A stretch of 36,147 nucleotides of DNA from a virus, in the IMG/VR virus record IMGVR_UViG_3300034198_003000, positions 1 to 36,147 of that record; one strand, written 5' to 3'. A program made the position numbers and the translations under genes. Of this stretch, positions 401 through 29,781 are shown piece by piece (within the stretch, counting starts at the first letter, position 1; every line of letters starts with the position of its first letter). Under the pieces are notes generated by a model. It searched no databases, had not been told where the DNA came from, and worked only from the letters and a program-made list of their open reading frames with translations.

Positions 401-3400
401 TCAGCTCCTTAGACCGCAGATTGCGGCAGCGTTCACGGCCTCACCGAGCTTCTCGGCGTCCTTGACCCCCTTGTCAAAGGTCTTTGTGCTGGCCTTAATG
501 TCTTCAACTATTCCGGCTTGGACGACTGCAACCTGGTCGCCTGCATTCCCACCGACAACGTTATCGGGTTCTCCCGAAACAGCCCCTCGGCCTGCCGTTC
601 TAGACTGGACAGCTGCTGCTTCAAGTCCTTCACGAACGGGGCGTCCGGTCCACGTTTCTGCTCTAACCGGTTGATCTGCTGCTGCAGCAGTTCTATTTGA
701 GATGGCATCTATAGCTCCTTGGTACTCGTGCTGGAAACGAACGTCTGTTGCATACCAAAACTGTTGCGCAAACGTCACGCCTTGTACTTTTTCTTTGACT
801 GCGTCGGCCAAGTCGACAAGTTCGTCGGCCTTCTGTTGCATTTTACTCCTCAGTTCGTCATCTGTCACATTCAGCATGGTTTCATCGCCATACCTGACAT
901 CAAACTCCGGAATGTATTGCAAGCGCACGCCGACGGCGTTGCCCATCTCGCCGGCCATCGCACCAGGCATGCGGCGCGCATCGACGATAACGGTGTAATA
1001 CTCGACGCCGACCTTGGCAAGGTCGTCCAGGATAGGTTGCATGTCAGCAACCGCTTTTCCTTCCCTAAAATAAATTTCGACACCAGGGCGGTGTTGCAAC
1101 AAATCAACATTTTCTTTGTAACGCAGCACACGCGACAGAAACATGCTGTCTTGCTGGGCATTCATTGCCTCGCGCAACATTTGCACTTGCAGCGCCGCCG
1201 GGTCATACCCCTCACGCGTAACCACCTCAAGATCGATTGAGCGCTCGACGCCGCCATAACGTCCTTCGGTCGACAGCACCTTAGAGCCAAGCACCGTCAC
1301 GCCATCGTCGTTTTCATAGATCGAGGTCTTCACGCGATTGGCGAGCTGCGCCATTTCCGGATCGTCCGGCACATAATCAATGCCTTGTGTCTCGGCGCTT
1401 TTTTGAATAGAAAGGCCGCCCTGGAAACGGTCGACCGAACGCGACAAGGTCTTTAGTTCGACAATCGCAGCATCGCGCTGGTCGGGTGAGCTCTTGCTCG
1501 AGTCGATCGTTTTGCGCAGCTCGGTAATCCGGTCCTGCAGTTTTGACCCGGTCAAGTCAGCCTCAAACTCAAACGAGCCGCCTTCCCCTGCTGCCGAGGT
1601 CCAGTTGTTTTTTGTCCAGACTTCCTTCTCAACAAACCAGACAACAGCTTGCAGGTCGTCGTCGTTTATCGAAGCCAAATTTTTATCAACTTTTAAATCT
1701 TGAGCTGCGCGAATGTCTTTGGCAGCCTGGCCAAACACATCCTGGCCAAAACCAAACTGCAAAGTCGTTTCACCGCTTGCCTTCATGTTGCCGGAAACGC
1801 CGCCCTCGGCCATCGACGGGATGCGCAGGAAACCAGCCAGGCGTTGCAGCATGCGCGCTGCCCACACGTCGATCGTCGCACGCTCGCGAAAGCCGATCAG
1901 GTTGCCGGAGAAGTTGAGCGCTTTTGGCTTGGTGCCGCCACGGCCAATGTCGGCGTCCTCATCTTTGACGACGCGCCACAAATTGATTAGCGCGCGCACG
2001 ACGTTGCGGCCATTAAAACCGTATTTCTTGCCGCTTTCCTTGAGCGGCATTAGGTCTTCAGGCAGCTCGCGCAGCACCTTGAGCTCTTCGCGAAAAGCCT
2101 TGTATTCAGGCATGTCTTTGATTGATTTCTTCGACAAACCTTCTTTGAGCTTGCTGTCAAACCAGCCGCGGAACTCGGCTTCTTTGGCGTTGACACCATC
2201 GGACCAGGCCGTCCACTTTGGCATAAGCTCATCAAAGTCACCGCGCATCGCACGACGTAGCGCGTCGATCGCATTATCCCAATTGCCCCGCACCGGCGTG
2301 TTTGGCGAGGTTGCGCCCAGCAGGTCAGCAAACAGGTCACCCAAACCACCAAACTCTTGACGCAAGCGGCTGCGCATTTCTTTGTACCAGCCGGCTTGCT
2401 TCAGAATATTTTTTGCCGCAGCGTCACCGGCCTGCGCGCGCTCAAATACCGAGCGCACCTCGTCGACCATGCGCTTGGCTACAGCGTTGACGCGCTTTAT
2501 GTATTCCGGCGTGCCAGGCTTAAGAGATTTTCCATCTGCGCCCGTGTTAAACGAATACGGCACTTCCTGGTATTGATAGGTCAGCTTGCCGTTGTCTTCG
2601 ACTTTAATGCCCTTGAACTCAAGCGGAGCCCAACCATCGTTCGCCGGGTGAGCGAGCTTATGGCCACGCACAACCTGCTCGACATCTTTCTGCGGCAACT
2701 TGGTGTCGGTGGCCGCCTTTGTAATAGCTGCACGTTCTGTATTGGACAGCGACACCCGTTTACCAACGGTTCGCGCTTCGCGCTCGACTCCCAACACATG
2801 GATGCCGACATCGCCACGGCGCTCGTCTTTTATCGCGTAATCGCCGGTGCGGCCTGTGATCTCGAACGCCGGCTGGCCGTTGCCACGCACGGTGCCAAGG
2901 CTAGTCTCAGTGGAGCTGTTTGCCTTTACTACGTCGTAACCGCGGCGTGCCAGAGCGTCATACATGCGCGCGGCCTCGGGCTGCACAGTGTCATCGCTAA
3001 CGACTCTTAGACCTTTGCCAAGCGCATTATCGACCAGCCTCTGGTAAAGTCGCACGCCTTCGCCTTGGCCACGCATCTCAAAAGCCACTTCAGAATTTGT
3101 GATATGCAGCGTGTTGCCGCGGATCTCGCCTGCCACAAAACCGGCTTTTGACTCGGCGCGCAGCAGGTTGCCTTGTGCGTTGATCTTGACGCCAAACTCG
3201 TCCGACGCCGCAGTGCGCTTGAGCGCTGCAATGGCCATTGTACGAATGTCATCGGCGTTGAGATCAATAAAGCGGCCGCCTAGCACGCGGTAGATGAACT
3301 GCTTAACCTGAGAAATAATGCGCTTGACCAACGGCAGGTCTGGCTGGTTTTGCACCAGGTAGGCGAGCATCTCGTCTTTTATGCGAGCGGCCGGAGTGTT

Positions 3401-5659
3401 TGCAGGCACAGCGTCAAGCGCGGCCCTAAACGTTAAAACGCCGGCCTTGGCCTTTGCTTCAATCTCCGACAGCAGCTGACGATAGAGCTGTGGACCAAGC
3501 ATCTTTTCCATGCCGTAATGCGCGCCAACTTCATGTAGCAGCACATTGGCAGCGTTGCCTGGGTCCAGATTGTCTGCCACCAGATAGGCGCGCTGGCCGT
3601 CAAAATAACCCATTGCATCGGCCGGGTGCGGCTTTTCATCGGCTCGCGGTGGTAATTCGTCGACCGATTGCACGACTCTTACAGCGCCGTTATCAATCAA
3701 CCTGCTGCCTGCGCCGTCAAAAGCGTCGCGCAGTTCGACAGTAGCGCCTTCAATGGTTTGGCCTGCGCCCTGGCCCTGGCTATATAAGGTGCCGTCTTGG
3801 TTCGCGGCTGCTTCTTTGCGCAACTTGGCGATCAGCTCTTTCGATGCGCCAGACGCTTCCAGGTTCTTGATAGCTGCGTCGAGCTGCTGCTGCGCCTTAT
3901 CGGCTTCAGCTCGCGCCACCTCGAGCTTGGCGTCTTTGGCGGCGCTGTTGCGGTAACGCTCGGTCGCCGCGGCAGCCGCTTCTGGATCAGCCGTCATTGA
4001 CGATCCGACATCTTGCTGTCGTGCGGCAGCGGCCTGCAGCTGGTCGATGTTAGGAACCATCATAAATGGTTCAATGTTTGGCGTCTGACCTTGGGCAAAG
4101 TGCGCAACAGCAACCTGTAGTGCAGCGGCTTGCTGTTCGGGTGTGGCCATTTGAGCGACCATCGAAGCGGGAGGCTGCATCATGCGATTCACAGCGCCTG
4201 CAATCTGCCCAGCACCTATCAGCTGATCTGCACGCGCTTTAACGCGGTCGGCGTACTGAGCAGGAATTTCGCCCTTTTCCAAAGCTGCCAACGCTTGCTC
4301 GGCCTGGCTAGCCGTAGCGTTGATGTCGATTTGCTCTTGCATGCGGTCGCGGGTCGCCTGCGCATTGGCGCGCTCGGTTTCGATTTGCTTTCTTGCGGCG
4401 CTTTCCGCTTCCTTGCGACTCATGCCCTGGCTTTGCATTTCCTTGGCGCGAGCTTTAAATTCTTCGGCGCTGGACAAGCGCGCGATAACCTGGTCTTGCC
4501 TGGTAATCTCGTTTTTTAAACCTAGAATCGCACCAGGCTCGGCACGGTTGCCGGCCGCTGCGGTAGCTTCACTGCGCAAATTGCTCTTGAGCTCGTCCAG
4601 CGCGCGTGCCTGTGCTGCTTCCGGCGTTATCTCATAGAGCTTTGCAAATGGTGCCTCTAGTGCAGTTGCCTCAGAACGTGCGCGCTCAATTGTGCGTCCT
4701 GGTGCCTCGCCGGTGACATCGATTGCCCGATCGGGCAAACCGGCAGCCTGACGCATGCGGTCAGAAAAATTAGCTGTCGCCGCTTCCACGTCGGTGACCT
4801 TGCCAGCCGCAACGTCTGCACGAAAACGCTGCACGTCCATCGCCTCGCGCATGGTCAAACCGCGCAGGTAATCAAAATCGTTCGGCAAGCCACGCATGCC
4901 ACGATAGCCTTCTCGCACGCCGCCGGCCATTATGTGCAGGCCGCCACCAAAGGCCGTGCCAAAAGCGATATTCGCCAGGCTGTCCATCATCGTGTAGTCG
5001 TTCTGCAGCTGCTGGTTCATGCCGTAGATCAGCGGCTCAATAAGCACAGAACCAACCGCACCTTCGGCAGCGCCAACGCCGGCTCGCACCGCAGTGCGGC
5101 CAAAGAAACCGCCGGCAGATCCCAGCAGTGCCATATAGCGCATCTCGCCCACTACTGGCACAAACGCCGAAGCGACGTTTAGCGGGTCAAGCGCAGAAAC
5201 CGCAAACGACGTTGCAAATCCTGCAATGTTTCTCAGGCCATCGGGCGAGCGTTCAATCACGACCTGACGCGCAATTCGATCCTGCTGATTTTTAATCATC
5301 AGGTCGAGCGCACCCGGCACAATGCCATCATCAGGCACGGTCAGCTTCACGCCGGCATCCTTGATGCGGCCGTCGGCTTCTTGCTTTGAAATCTTAGGTC
5401 TAGGCGGCCCGTAGATTGGTTGCACGTTGTAAAGCGGAACGCCGGTTATCGGATCATACGCATTTTGCATTTCCTGCATGTTTAAAGGCAGGTTGCTTTG
5501 AGCAGCGTCGATTGCGCCTTGCGTTGGCAGCAGGCCAGTAACGTAGTTTGATGCAAACGCTTCGTTTGCCTTGGCACCGATGTAAGCGCCAAACGAGCTC
5601 GGGTAGTCTAGTAACGACTGATCGTTAGGGTTGCGTGTTTCGTTCAGCAGGATCGGCAT
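401..5659 (-). CDS. Giant polyvalent virion protein with peptidase-like and acetyltransferase-like segments (1752 aa)
   Basis: Large multidomain protein whose start overlaps the stop of the transglycosylase gene (TAATG). Visible parts: hydrophobic, small-residue-rich stretches at about residues 150-245; a charged coiled-coil region at about 380-480; a zincin-like HEVGAHYG motif at 709-716 (H709, E710, H714, so spaced HExxxH and not classical HExxH); a GNAT-like segment at about 845-915 with RGQGEGVRLYQRL and a downstream ARRGYDV; and a block at about 1045-1360 with ATSPNTPVRGNW, TIDVWAARML and WFVEKEVWTKNNW that I know from large phage proteins but cannot assign a function. This fits the phage polyvalent proteins, which are packaged and delivered with the DNA to counter host functions. 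Position in the ejection module supports entry into the cell. Enzyme activities are inferred, not shown. Confidence 0.85.
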   Translation of the reverse strand: MPILLNETRNPNDQSLLDYPSSFGAYIGAKANEAFASNYVTGLLPTQGAIDAAQSNLPLNMQEMQNAYDPITGVPLYNVQPIYGPPRPKISKQEADGRIKDAGVKLTVPDDGIVPGALDLMIKNQQDRIARQVVIERSPDGLRNIAGFATSFAVSALDPLNVASAFVPVVGEMRYMALLGSAGGFFGRTAVRAGVGAAEGAVGSVLIEPLIYGMNQQLQNDYTMMDSLANIAFGTAFGGGLHIMAGGVREGYRGMRGLPNDFDYLRGLTMREAMDVQRFRADVAAGKVTDVEAATANFSDRMRQAAGLPDRAIDVTGEAPGRTIERARSEATALEAPFAKLYEITPEAAQARALDELKSNLRSEATAAAGNRAEPGAILGLKNEITRQDQVIARLSSAEEFKARAKEMQSQGMSRKEAESAARKQIETERANAQATRDRMQEQIDINATASQAEQALAALEKGEIPAQYADRVKARADQLIGAGQIAGAVNRMMQPPASMVAQMATPEQQAAALQVAVAHFAQGQTPNIEPFMMVPNIDQLQAAAARQQDVGSSMTADPEAAAAATERYRNSAAKDAKLEVARAEADKAQQQLDAAIKNLEASGASKELIAKLRKEAAANQDGTLYSQGQGAGQTIEGATVELRDAFDGAGSRLIDNGAVRVVQSVDELPPRADEKPHPADAMGYFDGQRAYLVADNLDPGNAANVLLHEVGAHYGMEKMLGPQLYRQLLSEIEAKAKAGVLTFRAALDAVPANTPAARIKDEMLAYLVQNQPDLPLVKRIISQVKQFIYRVLGGRFIDLNADDIRTMAIAALKRTAASDEFGVKINAQGNLLRAESKAGFVAGEIRGNTLHITNSEVAFEMRGQGEGVRLYQRLVDNALGKGLRVVSDDTVQPEAARMYDALARRGYDVVKANSSTETSLGTVRGNGQPAFEITGRTGDYAIKDERRGDVGIHVLGVEREARTVGKRVSLSNTERAAITKAATDTKLPQKDVEQVVRGHKLAHPANDGWAPLEFKGIKVEDNGKLTYQYQEVPYSFNTGADGKSLKPGTPEYIKRVNAVAKRMVDEVRSVFERAQAGDAAAKNILKQAGWYKEMRSRLRQEFGGLGDLFADLLGATSPNTPVRGNWDNAIDALRRAMRGDFDELMPKWTAWSDGVNAKEAEFRGWFDSKLKEGLSKKSIKDMPEYKAFREELKVLRELPEDLMPLKESGKKYGFNGRNVVRALINLWRVVKDEDADIGRGGTKPKALNFSGNLIGFRERATIDVWAARMLQRLAGFLRIPSMAEGGVSGNMKASGETTLQFGFGQDVFGQAAKDIRAAQDLKVDKNLASINDDDLQAVVWFVEKEVWTKNNWTSAAGEGGSFEFEADLTGSKLQDRITELRKTIDSSKSSPDQRDAAIVELKTLSRSVDRFQGGLSIQKSAETQGIDYVPDDPEMAQLANRVKTSIYENDDGVTVLGSKVLSTEGRYGGVERSIDLEVVTREGYDPAALQVQMLREAMNAQQDSMFLSRVLRYKENVDLLQHRPGVEIYFREGKAVADMQPILDDLAKVGVEYYTVIVDARRMPGAMAGEMGNAVGVRLQYIPEFDVRYGDETMLNVTDDELRSKMQQKADELVDLADAVKEKVQGVTFAQQFWYATDVRFQHEYQGAIDAISNRTAAAADQPVRAETWTGRPVREGLEAAAVQSRTAGRGAVSGEPDNVVGGNAGDQVAVVQAGIVEDIKASTKTFDKGVKDAEKLGEAVNAAAICGLRS
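508..708 (-). CDS. Possible embedded gene in alternate frame of the 1752-aa gene (66 aa, coiled coil)
   Basis: A 66-codon frame lies wholly inside the 3' end of the 1752-residue gene in a different phase. Its ATG is preceded by a perfect AAGGAG with six bases of spacing, as strong as any ribosome site in this genome. The product starts MPSQIELLQQQINRLEQ and has regularly spaced leucines over residues 5-42, a convincing short coiled coil. Over the same bases the host frame is rich in Ala, Gly, Arg and Thr, as a frame under dual constraint or a shadow frame would be. The extreme C-terminus of the large protein again looks like normal coding. No homolog is recognised. I consider it more likely real than not. 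Confidence 0.5.
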   Translation of the reverse strand: MPSQIELLQQQINRLEQKRGPDAPFVKDLKQQLSSLERQAEGLFRENPITLSVGMQATRLQSSKPE

Positions 5660-8600
5660 TAGGGAGCCCCGAAAAACGGTTCAGGTTTGAAAGTGCTTAC
5701 GCCGGCTTTTGGTTGCTGTAACAACTGCGCCCATGTGTATTTCACATCACGGCCGTCAGCTGTCTGTACCGGTGTGCGTGCAATGCTGTCATACAAAATA
5801 ATTCCGCTTTCATCGCCTGCAGTTACCCAAACGCCTGCGCTCTTTAAACCATCGGCGTATTGTGCTTGCGCGTCCTTCAAGTTCATTCCCTTCGGAATGC
5901 CAAGCGGTAATTTAAACTGCATCTTTGGCAATTCGGAAAACTTGCGATCTGCACCCGTCATTACATCTTTAATGTCGTACTGCTTTGGTACGCGCATATA
6001 ACCTTCAATGTTGTAGGCGCGTCCGATTGTGTTGTTGTAAGCACGCGTAGCAGCATCGGACGGGCTAGCACCTTCCTTGGCGTAAACATAGGCGAGCTTC
6101 TCAGCAGCATTGTAGAGCAGCGCAAATTGAGTGGTTCCACCAACTTGCAATGTCATCGTTTTTTGCAATGGGGCAAAAGCCTCCTGCGTCTTTTCCGAAA
6201 TTGTTTTTACATCGGTTGTGACAAGGCCTGCCTTAAGATCATTTTCTTTCATGTTGGCGGTCTGAATAATCAGCGCCGAGGTTGCCGAATCGACTGACGG
6301 GCCAAGCGATCCAACTACTTGGGCCACTGGCGGCAAATCTTTGTAGATCTCGCCAAACACTTGCGGCCAAGCATTTCCCCATACATTAGCCATTTGCTTC
6401 ATTAGCTGCGCCGCATTGTTGCCGCCTTCCTGCTGCTGACGGAACTGATTGCCAATCGCAATAGCTTGGCTGTCTGTCAGCAAACGTGGTGACATAATGC
6501 CCAAACGTTGTTGCTCTGCCGTGCTCGCGTTGACATAGTTGCGCGCAGCTGCCTGCTGTTGTTCGATCGTGCCGTTTTGCGACGTAGTCAGCTGATCTGC
6601 AGCCTGTTTAACAGAAGCTGAATTGCGCAGGACGTAGCCGGCTGGGTCTGCATTTCGTTCTTTGCGAACCTCGTCAATAGCCCTGATAAGCGTATCGCGC
6701 CGAGCAATGGCAGCTTCGGCACCAGGTCCAGTTGTTGGCCTGTAATTGTTGATAAGCCTGTCCTGGTCTTGAATTGACATTGTTTTGACCAGCTGTCTAT
6801 CTGCGCCGAGCTGAACAATATTGGCAAACTCATCAGAAAACCTTTTGCCTTGACCTGGGTGCCGACGTTCAAAATCGGCTTCGGTAATTTTTGGCCCTGT
6901 CCAAACTCCGCTATCTAAATAAGACTTTGTGGCGTCTTGCACGCGCTGGTCAAAAGTTTGATTCCACAGTGCGTTTTGCTGGTTAATTGAAGTCTGCGCC
7001 GAATTTAACATCGGAATCACTTTATCCTGCGGCAGGCGATTGACTATCTCCATTATTGTTGGATTGACGGCTGCTTTAGGAACAGCATTGTTTGGCTGCT
7101 GTTGATTAGTGACAGCCGACGAAACTTGATTGTTAGCAGCATTGCCGCCGCCAGATCTTCCGGCATTCGTCAAAATACTGTTGACGTAGTTCTGCACAGA
7201 CTTAGGCGAATTCTGTAGCCAATTTTCTCCATGCTTGGCAATCGCTTTTTGTACGTTGCCCTGGCCCCAGTTATAGCCAGCTAGTGCTTTTTGGTAGTCG
7301 CCATCAAACATCTTGAGCAAATCGCGCATGTAGAGCGCTTGCCCTTTAATAGATTGCTCTGGATCTTTTGGATCTATGTTGTATCGTGCTGCAGTTTTTG
7401 GCTGAAATTGCGATAAACCAATAGACGGATCGCCCGTTTTTTTTGCGTCTTCTTTGTTTATAGCAGCTGGGTTGCCGCCGCTTTCTGTTTTAATTTGCCA
7501 CAGCATGACGTTAGGATCGACGCCATTTTCGCTTGCTTGTTTTTCAACGGACGCCGACCAACGCGCAACGTTAGGCGGTAACGGTGTTACTTTTGCATTG
7601 CCTTGTTTGTTGCTATAAAACCGCTCCTGGTCTGCCGATAATTGTTTGCCATAAACGCTAGCCGCTTCTGGCGTCTCAAAAATACCAAGATGCTTGCCGT
7701 CCTTTTTATACTTATCGATTGCCTGCTGTTGCGACAAAACTTTGCCATCATCAGTAATAGGCGTCAGTAGCACCTCTTTGCCGTCGACATTGACTGAAAA
7801 CGAACTTACGGTCGAGATCGACCCGTCTTTGTTTTTGACTTGTGGTCGGTTAGTCAAATCTATATTGCCAGGCGTAACTAAACCTTTGACAGTTTTTAGA
7901 TCCGGACCTGGTTGCACAGCCTGGTTATTTGCTGGCAATCGATTGCCAGTAGCATTGATTGCTTGCACTTCTTCTGCCGACAAAGCAGTTGCACCCAACC
8001 GATTCATAATTGCCGACTTCACGCTATCGCTTTCACCTCTAGCAATAGCTCCTTGCAATGCGGCGATCGTCAAACGTTCAGAGAATTGACGAGCGGTTTT
8101 AAGTTTTACTTCTACATCTGAAGATGGATCATTTTGAATAACCGACAACGTATCTTTTAACAGCTTGTCATACAGCGACGAATCAGAAGAAACAAGACGT
8201 TCGTTATTAGAAACAACAGTTTCTAAATTGTCTTGGCGCTTAAAATAATCAGCTCTGGCTTCGACTTGTAACGCGTTAAGGCCGTAATGCTGGCCAAGCT
8301 GTGTAAGTGACCGTTGTGCATTTTGGCGAGCTGCATCGTTGCGAATACCGAAATACGGTTCCATTCCGGCTTGAGCTTGCGCTAAACGTTCCTCTTCGGT
8401 CGTATCACCATCGAGAACGCTTTTTGTAACTTCTGCCCATTTTTGATTTACTTGTTGAGCAAAATTAGGACCAGGATTTTTTGATGCTTCGTTGTACCAA
8501 CCCTGGAAAGAAACAGTCGCGTCAGATACCAGTTTACCTGCTTCCGTAATAGCATCAGCTTGCTCTTTGGCTTCTAACTTGCGCAACCGTTCTTGTTCTT

Positions 8601-8799
8601 GTTGCAGGAATTCTGCTTCGGCTTTTTCTTTCTCGCGCTTTTGAATTGCCATATTGACGCTGGCAAATCGCATCCCTGCTTCGCCAAGATTTTCTACAGC
8701 ACGACCTAGAGCTGGTGAAACTTCAGCACCTTGCGCGCGCGGCGTGACAAATCCGCTTGGCGTCAATCGATCTTCGTATTGTGGAATGCGCACGGCCAT
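5659..8799 (-). CDS. Internal virion protein with lytic transglycosylase domain (1046 aa)
   Basis: Ejection protein carrying an SLT-type lytic transglycosylase domain at about residues 425-545. The catalytic glutamate is E439 in the motif KTESGGNPAA, followed by a GLSQFQPKTAARY element and AGYNWGQGNV, both typical of the Slt/MltE fold. Such domains open the peptidoglycan locally so that the DNA and other internal proteins can cross the envelope. The N-terminal about 110 residues are charged and coiled-coil-like. The rest is helix-rich and unrecognised. In T7 the transglycosylase belongs to gp16; here it is in a separate, earlier gene. Base composition is visibly more AT-rich than in the adjacent 1752-residue gene. 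Confidence 0.9.
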   Translation of the reverse strand: MAVRIPQYEDRLTPSGFVTPRAQGAEVSPALGRAVENLGEAGMRFASVNMAIQKREKEKAEAEFLQQEQERLRKLEAKEQADAITEAGKLVSDATVSFQGWYNEASKNPGPNFAQQVNQKWAEVTKSVLDGDTTEEERLAQAQAGMEPYFGIRNDAARQNAQRSLTQLGQHYGLNALQVEARADYFKRQDNLETVVSNNERLVSSDSSLYDKLLKDTLSVIQNDPSSDVEVKLKTARQFSERLTIAALQGAIARGESDSVKSAIMNRLGATALSAEEVQAINATGNRLPANNQAVQPGPDLKTVKGLVTPGNIDLTNRPQVKNKDGSISTVSSFSVNVDGKEVLLTPITDDGKVLSQQQAIDKYKKDGKHLGIFETPEAASVYGKQLSADQERFYSNKQGNAKVTPLPPNVARWSASVEKQASENGVDPNVMLWQIKTESGGNPAAINKEDAKKTGDPSIGLSQFQPKTAARYNIDPKDPEQSIKGQALYMRDLLKMFDGDYQKALAGYNWGQGNVQKAIAKHGENWLQNSPKSVQNYVNSILTNAGRSGGGNAANNQVSSAVTNQQQPNNAVPKAAVNPTIMEIVNRLPQDKVIPMLNSAQTSINQQNALWNQTFDQRVQDATKSYLDSGVWTGPKITEADFERRHPGQGKRFSDEFANIVQLGADRQLVKTMSIQDQDRLINNYRPTTGPGAEAAIARRDTLIRAIDEVRKERNADPAGYVLRNSASVKQAADQLTTSQNGTIEQQQAAARNYVNASTAEQQRLGIMSPRLLTDSQAIAIGNQFRQQQEGGNNAAQLMKQMANVWGNAWPQVFGEIYKDLPPVAQVVGSLGPSVDSATSALIIQTANMKENDLKAGLVTTDVKTISEKTQEAFAPLQKTMTLQVGGTTQFALLYNAAEKLAYVYAKEGASPSDAATRAYNNTIGRAYNIEGYMRVPKQYDIKDVMTGADRKFSELPKMQFKLPLGIPKGMNLKDAQAQYADGLKSAGVWVTAGDESGIILYDSIARTPVQTADGRDVKYTWAQLLQQPKAGVSTFKPEPFFGAP

Positions 8800-9351
8800 T
8801 TATGACACCTTTGGAATTGTAATGCCCATGAAACCACCTTGACCAGGATTCGTGTACAGACCCCTGCTGTACATTGCATAATTAGTCGCGCCCGATAGTA
8901 GATTTGCACCAGCATTAAAAAATCCAGCTTGTCTTGCTGTATCTGCATTTCTACTTGCAGCAACAGCTTGGTATTTATCTAGCTGCGATTGCGTTTCAAA
9001 ATTTTTTGCCCTGGTTTGTCCTTCGTAGCGAATTGTCAACGCGTCCATTTCGTTCATCAACGCATTTTGCAAAAGAATGTCTCGATTGCTTCCATCAAGA
9101 CCAGCGCCAGATTGCGCAGCTCCAGCCGCGGCCTGGCCCTGCAACATTGCAAATTTTCTGCGTTGCTGCTCTTCTTGTACGCTGGCTTGCTGATTGGCCG
9201 CCGTCGCATTGTTTTTTGCGACCGTAGCGTTGTAATCCATCGCTTGCGCTTGCGCCTGGTAGCTCGCAGCTTGTGCCTGGCCTTGTTGAATAGCACCGAT
9301 TGCGCTGACCGCGGATCCCAAAGCCTGAAAAATTGGAAGAAATGCACCCAT
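8800..9351 (-). CDS. Internal virion protein, T7 gp14-like (183 aa)
   Basis: Small Ala/Gln-rich protein. It has a hydrophobic N-terminus (about residues 3-25, with small residues typical of a membrane-inserting helix), a long helical Gln/Ala middle and a Gly-rich C-terminus. The length, composition and location between the GNAT-like gene and the transglycosylase match the gp14 class of ejection proteins, which form the outer-membrane part of the ejection channel in T7. The start codon overlaps the stop of the upstream gene as TAATG, and the next gene begins one base after its stop. The match is by position and style rather than by a diagnostic motif. Confidence 0.75.
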   Translation of the reverse strand: MGAFLPIFQALGSAVSAIGAIQQGQAQAASYQAQAQAMDYNATVAKNNATAANQQASVQEEQQRRKFAMLQGQAAAGAAQSGAGLDGSNRDILLQNALMNEMDALTIRYEGQTRAKNFETQSQLDKYQAVAASRNADTARQAGFFNAGANLLSGATNYAMYSRGLYTNPGQGGFMGITIPKVS

Positions 9352-9776
9352 TATTTAATCCTTGCGTAAAGATGGCAATCGCGGCCGTCTGGCATAAATG
9401 CGCGCATTGTTCCCTCGCGCTGAAATCCCAGCATTTCTGCCCAACGATCGCCCTGCTTAAAGCCAACATCAACCGGCGTCTCAATTCGGCGATACTCACA
9501 CAGGTCCAAAAACCGCATAATTGCTTTGGTCAATGGCACAAAATGTCGCCTGGCTTTTTTGCCAATCAAACCCCACGCCACAGCTCTATTCTCCCACTGT
9601 GGCGTGATTCCTAGTGATGCAATTATCTCACCGTCTACCACAGCAGAAAATGCCGGGCCGTTTTTTTCTAGCCAATCGCCGTAATACGGTTCAGCAAACA
9701 ACGGTTGAAAATGCGCTTGCTTTTCCTGCAAAGACAGCAATTCCAAATGCCAGCCCTCAAATGGAACAACAATCAT
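9351..9776 (-). CDS. GNAT-like internal virion protein, T7 gp13-like (141 aa)
   Basis: Short GNAT-fold protein. The middle holds GLIGKKARRHFVPLTKAIMRF, where the acetyl-CoA-binding loop is expected, and the C-terminal third has the aromatic-rich GFQREGTMRAFMPDGRDCHLYARI typical of acetyltransferase ends. Phage proteins of this kind sit directly after the gp12-like tail nozzle gene and before the gp14-like gene, as here, and T7 gp13 occupies the same place. Whether it acetylates anything or is purely structural cannot be read from the sequence. The start overlaps the upstream stop by four bases (ATGA), so translation is probably coupled. Confidence 0.75.
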   Translation of the reverse strand: MIVVPFEGWHLELLSLQEKQAHFQPLFAEPYYGDWLEKNGPAFSAVVDGEIIASLGITPQWENRAVAWGLIGKKARRHFVPLTKAIMRFLDLCEYRRIETPVDVGFKQGDRWAEMLGFQREGTMRAFMPDGRDCHLYARIK

Positions 9777-12070
9777 CTGTCGAATGTATGCAGCTGCGGC
9801 ATGATGGCCACCACCGTCATCGGCAGCGGTTGCGGTTGCCGGACCATGACATACCCTTCAGTATCGTAGCCACTTGGCCATTCAATCATTTTGTCACCGC
9901 TAAACAGCGGCGGCGCTTGGTTCATCAAATTTTCAGGCGTTCGGAATTCCACCGTATCTAGCGCCGAAGCATCAGGACCAGCCTGCGCGCCCAGCGTATT
10001 AAGAAAACGAATTACGCACTTATTGATGCGCTTAGTTTTACCCTGGGCCGTACCGTCGGCAGCTCCGGCCTCCATCCTATTGGTCTGCAATGTAGCCACG
10101 CAGGCCAAGCCAACCTGGACTTTGCTGGCCGAGTTTTGCAACGTAATGGATCCGCTTGTTACTACCCGGTCAGGATGAGCCGCGCCGTCTGTCAGCACCT
10201 GGACGGTTTGCCCTTCCAGATAACCCAGGCCGGAAATAGTAGTCGTTGGAGCGCCTGAGTAAGTAGCGCCACAATCAACGTAAAAGCAATCGGCCTGTGT
10301 ATCCTGCTCTTCATCATAGGGCCGATTTAGATACTCGACATAGCGCTTAGTAACGCCGTTGATGGTGCGCTTCACGATCATCCAGAGATCGTCCTGGGTG
10401 CCGTCTGGCGCAGGAATACAGACAACCGATTCGACCTGGGCAATGCCCGTCGAAAAACTGCCGCCAATTTTGTGACGGTGCCAGCCAATTACGTCCTGCT
10501 CTTTGTTAAACGTAAAGCCCAACAGCTGACCGTCGGCACGCACCGCCCACAAAGCTACATAAGGTTCACGATGCCAGGCTGTTTGCGCAATGCCGTCACC
10601 AGTAATGTGGTTAGACAGCACGGTCAGATCTGTAGTCACAAAGCCGTTTTGTTGCAGGTTATAGGCCGCTTCTTTTAGCTTTTTGCCAGAACGTTGCACA
10701 AACAGAATAGAGTAACCCACGCGCGCTGGCGCAATAGCTCGGCTACCGTCGGATGTTTGCTGTTCAATCTTAATATTGCCAGGGGCAAATGCTTCGCTGG
10801 TCGAGTTTTCCATACAAGCGAATTCGCCGCCAGTTGTACCAATCACCAGCGCATTCGACGGCGCAAGCCAGGAAACCTGGTTCACCTGGTCAGATGAAAT
10901 CGTTGCTTTGATGGCCATGTCGGCCGTGACCAGACCGCTATCGTCCTTGGCCGCAAAGTTTTCAAAATCACCGGCCACCGAGAAAAACAGCTGCTGACCC
11001 TTGGCCAGCGCCAGGCGCTCACGGAAAAATGTTACTTTGCTAGGATAACCCTCAACAGCCGAGAATGCCGACAAAGCCCAGCGGAATGTCGCCTTGGTAG
11101 ATCCGACGACGCCACCTGGTAGCGGATTGTTGCCTTGGACCGTGGCCGTCACGACAGTCGAGCTAGTAAAACCCGTGATTTTGACGTAGCCAAAACCATT
11201 GTCGACAAAAAGCCAATCTAAACCGTTGCGATCGACTACAGTACCAGTAATCGCGCCGCCGTCGCCGTCAGCTTCGGTGCCATAGGTATGCACCGGTTTG
11301 TCGCCACCGGTGCGCCAAACTTTGCCAGAAGCCGGCGTGCCATTGGTAGTGCAAGAATAAGTCTTTCCTTCAGATCTGCGCAGCACGCCAAACGGATTAG
11401 TTGTAAATTCCTGGCCGGCATACCAGGGCTTGACGTTGGATAGATCCGACGGTTCCAGGTAGACGTAGCTGCCGACCATTGCCGCGGTAAACGTCGCAGA
11501 GCTGGCCGTCAGCGTGATCGAGCCTGTAGTTCCCGATGCGTAAATTGTGTTTGTGCGAACGGTGTTTTGATCTTTGAACGGGCCGTTAGCCAAATCAATC
11601 GGCGCAATGGTCCAGTTTGTATTGCCCAGGCGCGACAGTTTTTGGAACGGATAGCTTGGATGCGCCAGGTAAATAACGTCACCTGACTGCACCATATCAA
11701 TAGCAAAGTCGCCATCAGAATCAGTAAGATCAGCCAGGAGATACGGCGAGGCTATCTCATACGGCGTGCCGCCAGATAGCAGCTGACCGCGGTTGAAATA
11801 AAACCGAATGTATTGATTGCCAAACTCCAGGACAAACGATTGCGTGCTGGAAAACTCAAACCGAGCTAGCCAGGTTCGATGTGCGCTATTTTTGATTTCT
11901 GCAACGTAGCGCGTGCCGCCACGACGAACGGCCGGACCTTGTACCGACGGAATAAAGTTTTCTAATATCCGGCAGCCATTGCTGTATTTTGAAATGTCGA
12001 CGCGGCCGTCGACCAAAGGCGACAATTCGCCCGCATTAAAACTTGTCCGAATCGGTGAGGCTTTTGGCAT
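9773..12070 (-). CDS. Tail tubular / nozzle protein, T7 gp12-like (765 aa)
   Basis: Large beta-rich tail protein. The N-terminus has the conserved opening of phage nozzle proteins: SFNAGELSPLVDGRVDISKY, then NFIPSVQGPAVRRGGTRY within the first 55 residues. Later segments such as GEFACMENSTSEAF and RPYDEEQDT are typical of the same family. In podoviruses this protein forms the tube end through which DNA exits. It lies downstream of the gp11-like gene, with a 192-residue gene between them, and immediately before the ejection proteins. The start codon overlaps the upstream stop. Length is close to T7 gp12 (about 794 residues). Confidence 0.9.
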   Translation of the reverse strand: MPKASPIRTSFNAGELSPLVDGRVDISKYSNGCRILENFIPSVQGPAVRRGGTRYVAEIKNSAHRTWLARFEFSSTQSFVLEFGNQYIRFYFNRGQLLSGGTPYEIASPYLLADLTDSDGDFAIDMVQSGDVIYLAHPSYPFQKLSRLGNTNWTIAPIDLANGPFKDQNTVRTNTIYASGTTGSITLTASSATFTAAMVGSYVYLEPSDLSNVKPWYAGQEFTTNPFGVLRRSEGKTYSCTTNGTPASGKVWRTGGDKPVHTYGTEADGDGGAITGTVVDRNGLDWLFVDNGFGYVKITGFTSSTVVTATVQGNNPLPGGVVGSTKATFRWALSAFSAVEGYPSKVTFFRERLALAKGQQLFFSVAGDFENFAAKDDSGLVTADMAIKATISSDQVNQVSWLAPSNALVIGTTGGEFACMENSTSEAFAPGNIKIEQQTSDGSRAIAPARVGYSILFVQRSGKKLKEAAYNLQQNGFVTTDLTVLSNHITGDGIAQTAWHREPYVALWAVRADGQLLGFTFNKEQDVIGWHRHKIGGSFSTGIAQVESVVCIPAPDGTQDDLWMIVKRTINGVTKRYVEYLNRPYDEEQDTQADCFYVDCGATYSGAPTTTISGLGYLEGQTVQVLTDGAAHPDRVVTSGSITLQNSASKVQVGLACVATLQTNRMEAGAADGTAQGKTKRINKCVIRFLNTLGAQAGPDASALDTVEFRTPENLMNQAPPLFSGDKMIEWPSGYDTEGYVMVRQPQPLPMTVVAIMPQLHTFDR

Positions 12071-21845: not shown

Positions 21846-21875
21846 ATAATCGATGAGAAAACAGCATCACGTCAA
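21846..21875 (-). promoter_or_regulatory. Candidate sigma70 promoter for the packaging/head operon
   Basis: On the minus strand TTGACG (five of six to consensus) and GATTAT (four of six) are separated by 18 bases, and the TGA within the -35 is the stop codon of the DnaC-like gene. The predicted start lies a few tens of bases before the 57-residue gene. It is the only visible promoter candidate between replication and packaging genes and is moderate in quality. Confidence 0.45.
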
Positions 21876-22624
21876 GCGCGGAAGCTATCCCAGGTAAAAG
21901 CCACCAGCTTGCCGCCGCCTTCCCGTAGTCGATCGACTACACGTTCGCCCAGGCACTCGCGCAACGCCTGCGGATCCAGGTTTGTCAGGATGATTGTCGG
22001 CCGGCAATTCTCATATCGCTTGTTGATGATGTCGAACACCAGCTGGACCTCGTACTCGGTGCCGCGGTTTGCGCCGACTTCGTCCAGGATCAGCAAGCCA
22101 GGATCAACAAAAGCCTGGATCGCCTGTACTTCGGTCATCTGGCTGCCGGCGTCATAGGTCCGCTTGATGGCCCGCATAGCGTCGGACACGGTCGTGAACA
22201 CAGACGACACGCCCTGGCCCATCAGCTCGTTGGCAATTGCGCATGCCAGGTGAGTTTTGCCGGTGCCAGCATTGCCAGAAAAAATCAGGCTAGTGCCGGC
22301 AGCGACGTTCTCGCGCCAGTTGTCGGCATAGGATCTGGCTTTGCGTAGCGCCTTGGCCTGGCCCTCGTTGTTTGCCTGGTAGTTGTCAAAGGTCCGAGAC
22401 TGAAAGCGCAGCGGAATGCCTGCTCGTTGGAACAAGCCCTCGATTCTGCGTCGCTCCTGGTCGGACTGCACAACGCGCTGGCGCTCTTGGGCCTGCTGCT
22501 CTTTGTGCTTTGCGCATGCCTGGCATTGACCGCCCATGACCCGGTCGCCAATGGTGTACAGCATGGCCTCGTATTCGCCGTGCGTAGTGCAAACGCGCAG
22601 CTCTGTTCGGTTAGAAATTTCCAT
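21872..22624 (-). CDS. DnaC-like helicase loader ATPase (250 aa)
   Basis: AAA+ protein that loads the host replicative helicase at the phage origin. An N-terminal zinc-finger-like set is visible (C12, H15, C34, C37), followed by a basic, coiled stretch. Walker A is GNAGTGKTH at about residues 117-125 and Walker B is LLILDEVGA at about 175-183. A sensor segment follows in PTIILTNLDPQAL, and an arginine-rich ERVVDRLREGG lies near the C-terminus. The length is usual for DnaC/IstB-type loaders. It overlaps the O-like gene by 14 bases, forming the initiator-loader pair known from lambdoid phages. Confidence 0.92.
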   Translation of the reverse strand: MEISNRTELRVCTTHGEYEAMLYTIGDRVMGGQCQACAKHKEQQAQERQRVVQSDQERRRIEGLFQRAGIPLRFQSRTFDNYQANNEGQAKALRKARSYADNWRENVAAGTSLIFSGNAGTGKTHLACAIANELMGQGVSSVFTTVSDAMRAIKRTYDAGSQMTEVQAIQAFVDPGLLILDEVGANRGTEYEVQLVFDIINKRYENCRPTIILTNLDPQALRECLGERVVDRLREGGGKLVAFTWDSFRA

Positions 22625-23359: not shown

Positions 23360-23779
23360 TCAAAAAGGTATGTCGTCATTAAAATTAGCTGGCAACCCCT
23401 GCTGCTGGGCCTGCTTTGGACGAGCAACGGGTGCCGCGGTAGGTTGCTGCTCCTGGTCCTGGTCCTGGTCGTTGCGGTTGCCCAGGAACTCGACTTCATT
23501 GCAGCTGACTTCAATGCGGAACCCAGGCGTGCCGTCTTTCTTTGTGTAGGTATCCTGGGCGACACGGCCAAGGACCGCAACTTTCTTGCCCTTTAGCAGG
23601 TAAGGCGCTAGCTTCTCAGCTCGTTTGCCCCACACGCTGCAATCGATCCACATAGTTTTTGAATTTTGCCTGGTGCCGGTTTCGACAGCCAGGGGAAAAT
23701 TTGCCACCGCGTCACCGTTACTAGCGTGACGCAACTCAGCATCGCGACCGAGGTTTCCCGTAAAAAATCCCGTGTTCAT
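23360..23779 (-). CDS. ssb: Single-stranded DNA-binding protein (139 aa)
   Basis: The OB-fold domain covers about residues 1-105: MNTGFFTGNLGRDAELRH, FPLAVETGT, WIDCSVWGKRAEKLAPYLLKGKKVAVLGRV, then FRIEVSCNEVEFLG. A Gln/Asp-rich linker (DQDQDQEQQ) leads to the acidic tip NFNDDIPF, which in SSB recruits replication and repair partners. The protein covers single-stranded DNA during replication and recombination. It is translationally coupled to rusA (ATGA overlap). A gap of about 100 bp with no recognisable gene follows before the O-like gene. Confidence 0.95.
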   Translation of the reverse strand: MNTGFFTGNLGRDAELRHASNGDAVANFPLAVETGTRQNSKTMWIDCSVWGKRAEKLAPYLLKGKKVAVLGRVAQDTYTKKDGTPGFRIEVSCNEVEFLGNRNDQDQDQEQQPTAAPVARPKQAQQQGLPANFNDDIPF

Positions 23780-24789: not shown

Positions 24790-24977
24790 ACGCTCAAATT
24801 GTGCCGTTCCCATTATCGCAAAAAGGCCCGTTCCGGTTTACCTACACAGTCATTTTGCCAGACGGCCGCCGTGTTAGTGGCAAATCCGATCATGAGTTTT
24901 CGGCCGTCCTGGTTGAGCTGCTGCTAGACAAATACCCCGACGCAATCCGAGTTTCAGTAATTAAGGAGGAGTTTTAA
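24786..24977 (+). CDS. Unknown small protein before the exonuclease gene (63 aa)
   Basis: Short protein starting MNAQIVPFPLSQKGPF with a beta-type middle (FTYTVILPDGRRVSGKSD) and a helical EFSAVLVELLLDKYP. It is not recognised. GGAG lies seven bases before ATG. Its stop overlaps the exonuclease start as TAATG, and the end of its frame carries the strong AAGGAGG ribosome site of that gene. Tight coupling suggests a role in the recombination set. Confidence 0.65.
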   Translation: MNAQIVPFPLSQKGPFRFTYTVILPDGRRVSGKSDHEFSAVLVELLLDKYPDAIRVSVIKEEF

Positions 24978-25603
24978 TGGACACAATTACAGACGAACAA
25001 CGCACCGCGGAATGGTTCCAGGCGCGCGTAGGAAAAGCAACAGCGTCACGCTTCAAGGACGTGATGGCCAAGCTCAAGAACGGCAGCCCGGCCGCAGTAC
25101 GCACCAATTACCTGGTCGACATTGCCACCGAGCGGCTGACCAAATCAGCCACGCCGCATTACACCAACAGCGCCATGCAATGGGGCGTCACCCACGAAAC
25201 CGGCGCGCGTATTCTGTATGAACAGCGCCGCCAATTGCAGGTCGAGGAAACCGGATTCATTCAGCATGACGAGCTGGACGCCGGTGCATCGCCTGACGGC
25301 CTGGTTGATTGGGATGGCCTGATCGAAATCAAATGCCCATATAACAGCTCGGTCCATGTGCTGACCTGGATGGACGGCATGCCAGAAGACCACGTCGCCC
25401 AGGTCCAGGGCCAGCTCTGGATCACCGGCCGGCAGTGGTGCGACTTCGTATCATTTGACCCACGCATGCCGCCTGCTTTGCAGCTCTACGTTGAACGCAT
25501 CGAGCGCAACGACAGTTATATCGCCGGCCTAGAAACCGAGATCCGCAAATTTTTAATTGATGTAGACACAATGGTTGCAACCCTTTTGGAGAAATCAAAA
25601 TGA
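24977..25603 (+). CDS. YqaJ-type viral recombination exonuclease (208 aa)
   Basis: 5'-3' exonuclease of the lambda exo/YqaJ type, which makes single-stranded tails for the annealing protein encoded next. Characteristic parts are AEWFQARVGKATASRFKDVM at the N-terminus, MQWGVTHETGARILYE with E74, GASPDGLV with D107, and LIEIKCP with E117 and K119, which together give the PD-(D/E)XK active site. HVAQVQGQLWITGR (about 139-152) is the usual follow-on helix. It has the strongest ribosome site in the operon (AAGGAGG). Its stop overlaps the RecT start, so the pair is made together. Confidence 0.95.
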   Translation: MDTITDEQRTAEWFQARVGKATASRFKDVMAKLKNGSPAAVRTNYLVDIATERLTKSATPHYTNSAMQWGVTHETGARILYEQRRQLQVEETGFIQHDELDAGASPDGLVDWDGLIEIKCPYNSSVHVLTWMDGMPEDHVAQVQGQLWITGRQWCDFVSFDPRMPPALQLYVERIERNDSYIAGLETEIRKFLIDVDTMVATLLEKSK

Positions 25604-26352
25604 AAAACGAACTAATGACAGTCACCGACATCGAGCGCATGGCAGTCGCCGTCGCCAAATCCAACCTGTTTGGCGTGCGCACACCGGACCAGGCAATGGC
25701 CCTTATGCTAATTAGCCAGGCTGAAGGAATGCACCCGGCCATCGCGGCGCGCGATTACCACGTCATCAATGGCAAGCCTACCCTCAAGGCCGACGCCATG
25801 CTGGCGCGTTTCCAGCAGGCCGGCGGCACGGTAAAATGGTCCGAGTACACCGATACCGCAGTCTGCGCCGTCGTCTCACACCCGGCCGGCGGTAGCGTAG
25901 AAATTACCTGGACAATAGCTATGGCCGAAAAAGCTGGCTTGACCAAAAATCCAACCTGGCGGCAATACCCACGCCAGATGCTGCGCGCCCGCGTAATCAG
26001 CGAAGGTATCCGCACCGTGTTCCCAGGCGTTGCTGTCGGCGTCTATACGCCGGAGGAAGCGGCCGATTTTGACAAGCAGCCACCGGCACCAGCAGCCGCA
26101 GCGCCAGAGACGCAGCCCATGACAATTGACCTGGGGCCAGCTGACGTCGTCGAACAGTCGCCAGACCAGGCCGAGGCCGACGCCGCCGAGCTCAGTACCA
26201 AGATCGCCAAGGCCACGTCAATTCAAGACTTAGACAACCTGCGGCCGGCAATACGCCAGCTGCCGGAAGACCTGCGCAAAATTGCAATGGCCAAGGCGCG
26301 CGCCCAGGCAGCGGTTATTCGCGAAACAGAGGCCGATGAACAGGCGCTCTAA
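25600..26352 (+). CDS. recT: RecT-family single-strand annealing protein (250 aa)
   Basis: Recombination partner of the exonuclease. The RecT core covers about residues 8-165: AVAVAKSNLFGVRTPDQAMALML, MHPAIAARDYHVINGKPTLKADAMLARFQQAGG, and a conserved end with NPTWRQYPRQMLRARVISEGIRTVFPG. The C-terminal 80 residues are a Pro/Ala/Gln-rich linker followed by a helical tail (TKIAKATSIQDLDNLRPAIRQ). The linear fusion of core and acidic tail is common. The gene overlaps the exonuclease by four bases and its stop overlaps the next start (TAATG). Confidence 0.93.
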   Translation: MKNELMTVTDIERMAVAVAKSNLFGVRTPDQAMALMLISQAEGMHPAIAARDYHVINGKPTLKADAMLARFQQAGGTVKWSEYTDTAVCAVVSHPAGGSVEITWTIAMAEKAGLTKNPTWRQYPRQMLRARVISEGIRTVFPGVAVGVYTPEEAADFDKQPPAPAAAAPETQPMTIDLGPADVVEQSPDQAEADAAELSTKIAKATSIQDLDNLRPAIRQLPEDLRKIAMAKARAQAAVIRETEADEQAL

Positions 26353-28990: not shown

Positions 28991-29174
28991 TTGTTTCCTC
29001 CTTCAGCACTTCCGGTTTTAGCAATTGATCCGGACAGGTTCCAGTTACAGCGCATCGCGGCCGCTGGCATTTTGGCTTATCCCAATTTTCAGGATCCTGG
29101 CAAAAATACCGAAAGCGCTCGCAGCCACTAAGCCAAACGACTGCCACTATCAAACATAGCCAACGCAATTTCAT
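28923..29174 (-). CDS. Lysis-module lipoprotein (83 aa)
   Basis: Lipoprotein signal MKLRWLCLIVAVVWLSGC with lipobox LSGC and Cys18. The mature part has several further cysteines (FCQDPENW, KPKCQRPRCAVTGTC and two near the end) and is otherwise Pro/Lys/Asn-rich. GGGAG lies seven bases before the chosen ATG; an in-frame start 21 bases earlier lacks one. The CQDPENW... KCQ.PRC pattern recurs in lysis modules of T7-like phages, from my recollection. It is a second lipoprotein beside Rz1, perhaps an outer-membrane partner or exclusion protein. It overlaps the endolysin end and the holin start. Confidence 0.8.
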   Translation of the reverse strand: MKLRWLCLIVAVVWLSGCERFRYFCQDPENWDKPKCQRPRCAVTGTCPDQLLKPEVLKEETNEPNKANKPVPCNDAGAARCSN

Positions 29175-29781
29175 AATGATGCTCCCTATCTGCAAGCCCG
29201 ATGTAACCGCCGTTAATCCTGCGCGTGAGTTGTTTTATGTCACCAGCGTCTGCCAGCGTGTTTAACTTGTTCGTTTCCCAAAACCAGCAGGCGCTTTGCG
29301 CTGCACCCTCGAATGTCTCAAGATATTCCGATGCCTGTTCCGGTGTCATCTCAAGTGAAGCACCAAACCAAAAATAATTGTCCTTGCCGGTCAGCTGCAA
29401 AATCCCGCGGCCACGGAACGCGAAGCCCTCCTGGCTGGCTTCATCGCCATTGCCCATGCGGTTAGCATATACCCGGCTAGCGATCTTTTTTGGATTGCGC
29501 TCGTATTGTTTAGCCAGGTCCATGCTAGAAAAATATTTCGGGAACACGCGCATCAGACCAGACGCGTTGTAGTTTAGATTCTCGGTGACAAACACAAAGC
29601 CACCAGACTCATGCGCGCATTGCGCCAGGAATGCGGCGACGCGTTTTGGTGTGTTGATCTGGTATTCATCTAACAGCGATTTGCCGCCCAGCTCGGTCTG
29701 CGGGCCAAACAGCGTGTCGTACCATTGCTGCTGGTATTTACTGTGTGGTGCAAACTTTTTGAATTGTGCCAACGTGATCAT
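29128..29781 (-). CDS. Endolysin, GH19 (chitinase-like) family (217 aa)
   Basis: Cell-wall hydrolase of the glycoside hydrolase 19 fold. The active region has QCAHESGGFVFVTENLNY, with E58 and E67 as the likely catalytic pair, and RVYANRMGNGDEASQEGFAF followed by RGRGILQLTGKDNY (about residues 103-136), the substrate-cleft motif of phage GH19 lysins. There is no signal peptide, so release needs a holin. It is a single-domain enzyme without a binding module, typical of phages of Gram-negative hosts. It overlaps the membrane protein gene upstream by four bases. Confidence 0.93.
   Translation of the reverse strand: MITLAQFKKFAPHSKYQQQWYDTLFGPQTELGGKSLLDEYQINTPKRVAAFLAQCAHESGGFVFVTENLNYNASGLMRVFPKYFSSMDLAKQYERNPKKIASRVYANRMGNGDEASQEGFAFRGRGILQLTGKDNYFWFGASLEMTPEQASEYLETFEGAAQSACWFWETNKLNTLADAGDIKQLTRRINGGYIGLADREHHYEIALAMFDSGSRLA

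Follow-up and report, generated by a model that had tools for sequence, protein, structure and literature searches.

The 1752-aa protein described here is read, with about as much confidence as doubt, as a polyvalent ejection protein of a T7-like podovirus that is delivered by the virion and carries, in a single chain, a zincin, a GNAT and a 765-aa module formed by an HhH-GPD-like N-glycosylase core and a tandem ferredoxin-like domain. The wider proposal, put forward more tentatively, is that a widespread class of uncultivated podoviruses delivers in this manner a virion-borne bifunctional DNA N-glycosylase/AP lyase (a DUF7178-related HhH-GPD enzyme), which would excise bases or nick nucleic acid in the host cell as soon as infection begins. 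For phages, polyvalent proteins are a major means of bringing ready-made enzymes into the cell, and the prediction suggests that base excision is among the activities delivered; if it is true, a DNA base-removing enzyme would be an unusual cargo for a virus particle. The features on which the discussion is based are the following, given in positions of the window, that is, the whole stretch of DNA analysed (a virus record of 36,147 bases).

401..5659, minus strand: whole 1752-aa ORF (P0001), with an ATG start
3800..5659, minus strand: aa 1-620, ejection/internal virion protein part (phrog_3003; weaker phrog_8824 and phrog_342)
3224..3694, minus strand: zincin-like peptidase domain of the polyvalent type, aa 656-812 (alignment to relatives)
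3512..3535, minus strand: HEVGAHYG (HExxxH), aa 709-716 (sequence)
3371..3373, minus strand: E763, predicted third metal ligand (Glu in 7/7 aligned sequences)
2915..3157, minus strand: GNAT-like segment with RGQGEG 863-868, aa 835-915 (Pfam matches below cut-offs; position after the zincin)
530..2827, minus strand: conserved block, aa 945-1710 (common to about 100 IMG/VR loci)
1478..2545, minus strand: DUF7178-related, HhH-GPD-glycosylase-like helical core, aa 1039-1394 (profile and structure comparison)
1922..1924, minus strand: K1246, invariant, predicted Schiff-base lysine (conservation)
1868..1870, minus strand: D1264, invariant, predicted catalytic aspartate (conservation)
734..1435, minus strand: tandem ferredoxin-like alpha/beta domain, aa 1409-1642 (structure comparison; adjoins the core in relatives long enough)
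5659..8799, minus strand: neighbouring 1046-aa protein with an SLT lytic transglycosylase domain
8800..9351, minus strand: neighbouring T7 gp14-like internal virion protein
9351..9776, minus strand: neighbouring phrog_4177/308 internal virion protein
9773..12070, minus strand: neighbouring nozzle/tail protein (phrog_376)

The open reading frame, which an earlier note had reported without a strand, is borne out as 1752 aa read from an ATG on the minus strand, and its translation holds the two motifs where they had been placed, HEVGAHYG at 709-716 and RGQGEG at 863-868. From the head side, the minus strand encodes the head-tail connector, the protease, the major head protein, a tail protein (phrog_394) and the nozzle (phrog_376), followed by the phrog_4177/308 protein, the gp14-like protein (phrog_418), the 1046-aa SLT protein, the 1752-aa protein and a virion protein of phrog_684. 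This gene set is a T7-like structural cassette in which the 1752-aa protein occupies the place of an ejection protein. The gene order around the block protein is the same in the relative L102, and in L079 the block protein is found between the nozzle and internal virion protein genes. A separate observation concerns the phrog_4177/308 protein (9351-9776, minus strand), which gives a weak GNAT match (Acetyltransf_1, E 0.04); a second acetyltransferase-like fold may be encoded in the same cassette.

The first 620 residues match phrog_3003 (E 1.9e-64) and, more weakly, phrog_8824 (E 8.4e-7) and the gp16-type phrog_342 (E 8.6e-4), and they also resemble ORF15 of Pseudomonas phage Tr60_Ab31 and the internal virion proteins of pelagiphages. 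The relative in Tr60_Ab31 (~580 aa, adjoining the structural lysozyme gene of that phage) corresponds to the N-terminal part alone, and thus some 1100 residues of payload are added in the window protein; a search of the Tr60_Ab31 region with the block, DUF7178 and zincin profiles gave no match. Both the N-terminal family (phrog_3003, and more weakly phrog_342) and the gene order (gp14-like, SLT and nozzle neighbours) are those of the T7-type internal virion or ejection proteins gp14-gp16, from which the window differs in having the SLT domain on a separate upstream ORF and in the addition of ~1100 aa of enzyme-like payload. Several unrelated enzyme-like domains (zincin, GNAT and glycosylase-like core) are present in the one chain, and the earlier reading of a polyvalent ejection protein is supported by the family, the domain order and the motif evidence. 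From its sequence and setting, the protein is probably injected into the host as part of the ejected protein set of the phage.

The predicted zincin is the first part of this payload. On the evidence of the alignment, its HExxxH is not a chance string, because the ~150 residues around it can be aligned to six proteins of phages or prophages in which the HE...H, the LVAD(N)L strand in front of it and the Glu farther on are all retained. The pairwise identity of this region (~656-812) to the phage relatives, among which are DarB-like and other multidomain proteins, is about 25-34%, and that of the prophage L143 aligns as well. The spacing of the motif varies among the seven aligned sequences: HExxxH is found in four (the window, L108, L110 and L143) and HExxH in three DarB-like proteins (L106, L107 and L109). 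The residues that define the HEXXXH polyvalent zincin metallopeptidases (MPTases), an HExxxH and a downstream Glu, are present as H709, E710, H714 and E763, the last of them in DEMLAY, downstream of HEVGAHYG. This HEXXXH set has already been described, with auto-processing as the suggested role (Iyer et al., 2017; PMC5512222); the window zincin shares with it the motif, the downstream Glu and the setting in a multidomain phage protein, and differs in having no match to Pfam MPTase-PolyVal. The hhalign comparison of the zincin with one ArdC-type MPTase was weak, its score being reached by 1 of 100 decoys.

With respect to the DarB-like antirestriction proteins of Parlo, Skulduggery and JC1, the zincin region is homologous at about 26% identity, although all three carry HExxH where the window protein has HExxxH. 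In Parlo and Skulduggery a GNAT comes after the zincin, the order seen in the window, but these two proteins add helicase/methyltransferase and LPD39 domains, and Parlo has no DUF7178 match. In addition, the prophage-type 3606-aa ORF of L143 has a zincin with HETVGHGG before a DUF7178 domain (about aa 265-663 of the open frame), as in the window, and a ferredoxin-like segment, judged by eye, may come after the DUF7178 domain.

The GNAT reading of the earlier note is supported by motifs and domain order. Motif A (R/QxxGxG/A) and an AxxxYxxxG-like motif are present, as RGQGEG 863-868 and AARMYDALARRGY, and the position after the zincin is that of the DarB-like proteins; the Pfam GNAT matches, however, are weak (E 0.004 and 0.052) and fall below the curated cut-offs (17.7 vs 30 bits and 14.3 vs 20.7 bits). 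A query formed by the zincin and the GNAT found no relatives in viral contigs, and the pair was not detectable in the carriers of the block. GNATs in polyvalent proteins, like the zincin variant, have already been described (Iyer et al., 2017; PMC5512222), and for this reason the two domains are new members of already known kinds and not the undescribed activity for which the protein had been called the strongest candidate; what is novel is the part that had been left unassigned.

This unassigned part had been delimited as a large block at 1045-1360, which proved to be real but understated, since the homology to other phages spans about 945 to 1710. Among the viral contigs found, no part of the protein except the block shows wide conservation. 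Its identity to relatives in other IMG/VR contigs, from uncultivated phages, is 39-67% over the aligned stretch (up to 75% in single segments), and no similarity outside it was found to the first 31 loci at E<=1e-5, nor was any detectable in L002/L028, where the block is 67% identical. Other carriers, of up to 3913 aa, have it fused to LPD22, ART-PolyVal, InPase, PBECR5 or glucosaminidase domains. A second clade is more remote (34-37% identity by BLAST); its proteins, of 900-1100 aa, consist mostly of the block, and their genes too are located among nozzle and internal virion genes (L079). The block is therefore a payload module, and a mobile one, of the ejection loci of podoviruses. In other searches, 50,697 phage records at E<=10 gave nothing except three chance-level matches, a pattern scan of species genomes returned only one contig, the comparison of the block sequence with the PDB gave chance-level matches only (mostly regulatory subunits of PKA), NCBIfam offered nothing useful, and the BFVD search led mainly to uncharacterised proteins of uncultured phages.

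The AlphaFold model of the whole block has a mean pLDDT of 84.6 and a pTM of 0.82, and it is predicted to consist of a DUF7178-related domain resembling the HhH-GPD DNA glycosylases, followed by a tandem ferredoxin-like domain. The latter (aa ~1409-1642) weakly resembles tandem ferredoxin-like folds, with Z of about 7-8, and is the source of the ferredoxin-like/ABM/RND-porter rows that Foldseek gives for the whole block.

The relationship of the core to DUF7178 (Pfam PF23802; phrog_3842 matches the same stretch) was assessed by profiles and by conserved residues. The Pfam profile scores the window at 21.4 bits (E 2.7e-4), below its gathering cut-off of 27, and is matched weakly by 22 of 25 block members (best E 5.7e-6), while hhalign of the block core against a 65-sequence DUF7178 alignment gives a Prob of 98.9 and an E of 2.3e-17. 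Nine positions are invariant in 46 block sequences (W1091, Y1092, S1118, N1126, K1246, D1264, W1266, Q1337 and W1341), and in the 65 DUF7178 sequences the corresponding columns vary little or not at all, seven of them (all but those of N1126 and W1341) being invariant there as well, so that the two share the same set of W-Y, S(P), N, K, TxDxW and Q..W; the sequences L202-L234 are intermediates that bridge them. The family relationship is solid. Since the gathering score is missed, the core is filed as a divergent relative of DUF7178 and not as a member, and the block represents a new related subfamily. It also differs from DUF7178 in its long insert, in its C-terminal ferredoxin-like domain and in its location inside an ejection protein, whereas many DUF7178 are solo genes of ~200 aa. 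For such solo genes of actinophages (Gordonia and Mycobacterium phages), annotators have chosen the names 'glycosylase', 'N-glycosylase' or 'N-glycosylase/DNA lyase'.

Four lines of evidence, none of them decisive, agree on an HhH-GPD-like core: the K/D motif, a profile score, the structural rows and these annotators' names. In PKALNFSGNLIGFRERATIDVWAARML the K and the D are 18 residues apart and N occurs at +3 and +7 from K, the same spacing and N positions as in 'GRKTANVVLNTAFGxPTIAVDTHIFR' of Nth; thus the catalytic Asp and the Lys of bifunctional enzymes have aligned counterparts, D1264 and K1246, at the conserved spacing. Compared with the Nth profile, the DUF7178 and superfamily profiles obtain scores of 20.5-21.4, a value reached by 0 of 150 block-shuffled decoys in each case, and against a mixed Nth/MutY profile the score is reached by 1/150 and 2/150; the probability given by hhalign itself for DUF7178 against HhH-GPD is only 2-3%. 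The above-decoy score comes from the broader DUF7178 profile only, as the block core by itself gave nothing in hhalign against HhH-GPD, and Pfam HhH-GPD (PF00730) has no match. The comparison set is limited to Nth and MutY because searches for OGG_N and Q_salvage genes found none in 150 genomes each.

Folded alone, the core has a pLDDT of 79.2. The only structural rows that cover the whole domain in VIA-align, all of them weak, are QNG1 (7u5a; Z 5.8, rmsd 5.2 A, 199 residues aligned), human MUTYH (3n5n; Z 5.1, rmsd 4.7 A, 179 residues) and EndoIII of D. radiodurans (8a5c; Z 4.8, rmsd 5.2 A, 174 residues), and DUF2419/QNG1 has itself been described as similar to DNA glycosylases (PMC9406330). 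None of these glycosylase Z-scores reaches 8, rows of short helical bundles tie with them, and Foldseek gave no significant PDB match (best E 3.8). In the whole-block model one helix starts beside the K and the next one just after the D. The core hence resembles the HhH-GPD glycosylases (endonuclease III, MutY, OGG1) in the Lys/Asp pair spaced as in Nth, the helix positions and the weak whole-domain matches, but it departs from them in the low scores, the missing Pfam match, the 'LPGVG' hairpin motif, replaced by 'GGTxPK', and the large insert that separates the first helical part from the second. Taken together, the fold is regarded as probable.

A way in which such a protein could work is the following. 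The N-terminal ~620 residues would serve for packaging and ejection and the remainder would be the payload; to judge by the family and the gene order, the virion most likely ejects the chain with the first DNA. In the cell, E710 would act as the base of a Glu-zincin HExxxH site with H709, H714 and E763 as ligands, and following published reasoning on polyvalent MPTases the zincin most likely cuts the chain itself or a host protein; the GNAT might modify a protein amine. Conservation and the weak fold match suggest that the core would act on nucleic acid, with D1264 for base removal and K1246 as the residue that would form a Schiff base and might nick the strand. Its substrate would most likely be host DNA, incoming DNA or a nucleoside/tRNA being possible.

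The substrate could also lie outside DNA altogether. An N-glycosidase of nucleosides, nucleotides or tRNA similar to QNG1, altering host nucleotide signalling or tRNA once delivered, would fit the first place of QNG1/DUF2419 (7u5a) among the whole-domain structural rows, as well as the nucleotide- or protein-directed partners of the block, ART and inorganic pyrophosphatase; nevertheless, Z differences of less than 1 are ties, the Lys-Asp pair lines up with that of Nth at equal spacing, and solo DUF7178 genes are annotated as N-glycosylase/DNA lyase, so this option is considered unlikely. The notion that the glycosylase-like fold has been kept without catalysis, to bind DNA or as a structural element of the ejection machinery, draws on the location among virion-structural genes in the window, L102 and L079, and on strongly conserved aromatic and basic residues that could bind DNA. 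It is made improbable by the K and the D, absolutely invariant in 111 divergent sequences that include solo genes outside structural cassettes, and by the enzymatic nature of the block partners in other carriers.

Known DNA glycosylase/AP lyases of the HhH-GPD superfamily are mostly repair enzymes, which favours a base excision repair activity carried in for damaged bases of the incoming phage genome instead of an attack on the host. No other repair gene was noticed among the ORFs scanned, however, and the polyvalent effector domain partners point to conflict, which leaves repair with little probability. Finally, a view in which zincin and GNAT are the main counter-defence activities, the block being incidental, agrees with the zincin-GNAT order common to DarB-like antirestriction proteins; it appears very unlikely in the light of a block kept at 39-67% identity and of a zincin-GNAT pair without relatives in viral contigs and undetected in block carriers.

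As for precedents of a delivered glycosylase-like core, the open-access subset of the literature that was searched contained no polyvalent protein delivered by a virion and read as HhH-GPD-like, and in the 2017 survey of polyvalent proteins (Iyer et al., 2017; PMC5512222), which lists many activities, the word 'glycosylase' does not occur. One paper that mentions a glycosylase and an internal virion protein was set aside, as it concerns a separate pyrimidine-dimer glycosylase gene. The prediction that DUF7178 is an HhH-GPD-like N-glycosylase makes a domain of unknown function assayable through two named residues, K1246 and D1264.

With regard to the rest of the record, its two ends interrupt the phrog_684 virion protein without a change of frame (1-399 and 34009-36147, minus strand; 133 + 712 aa for a family length of 840), and the record is therefore probably a complete circular or circularly permuted genome. 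A RecE-like exonuclease adjoins a RecT-like annealing protein on the plus strand (24977-26352), with an SSB gene near them on the opposite strand (23360-23779), and an IstB/DnaC-like ATPase, likely a helicase loader, is encoded at 21872-22624 on the minus strand. The ORF at 29131-29781 (minus strand) gives a weak match to chitinase class I/GH19-like proteins (E 0.0016) and is possibly an endolysin.
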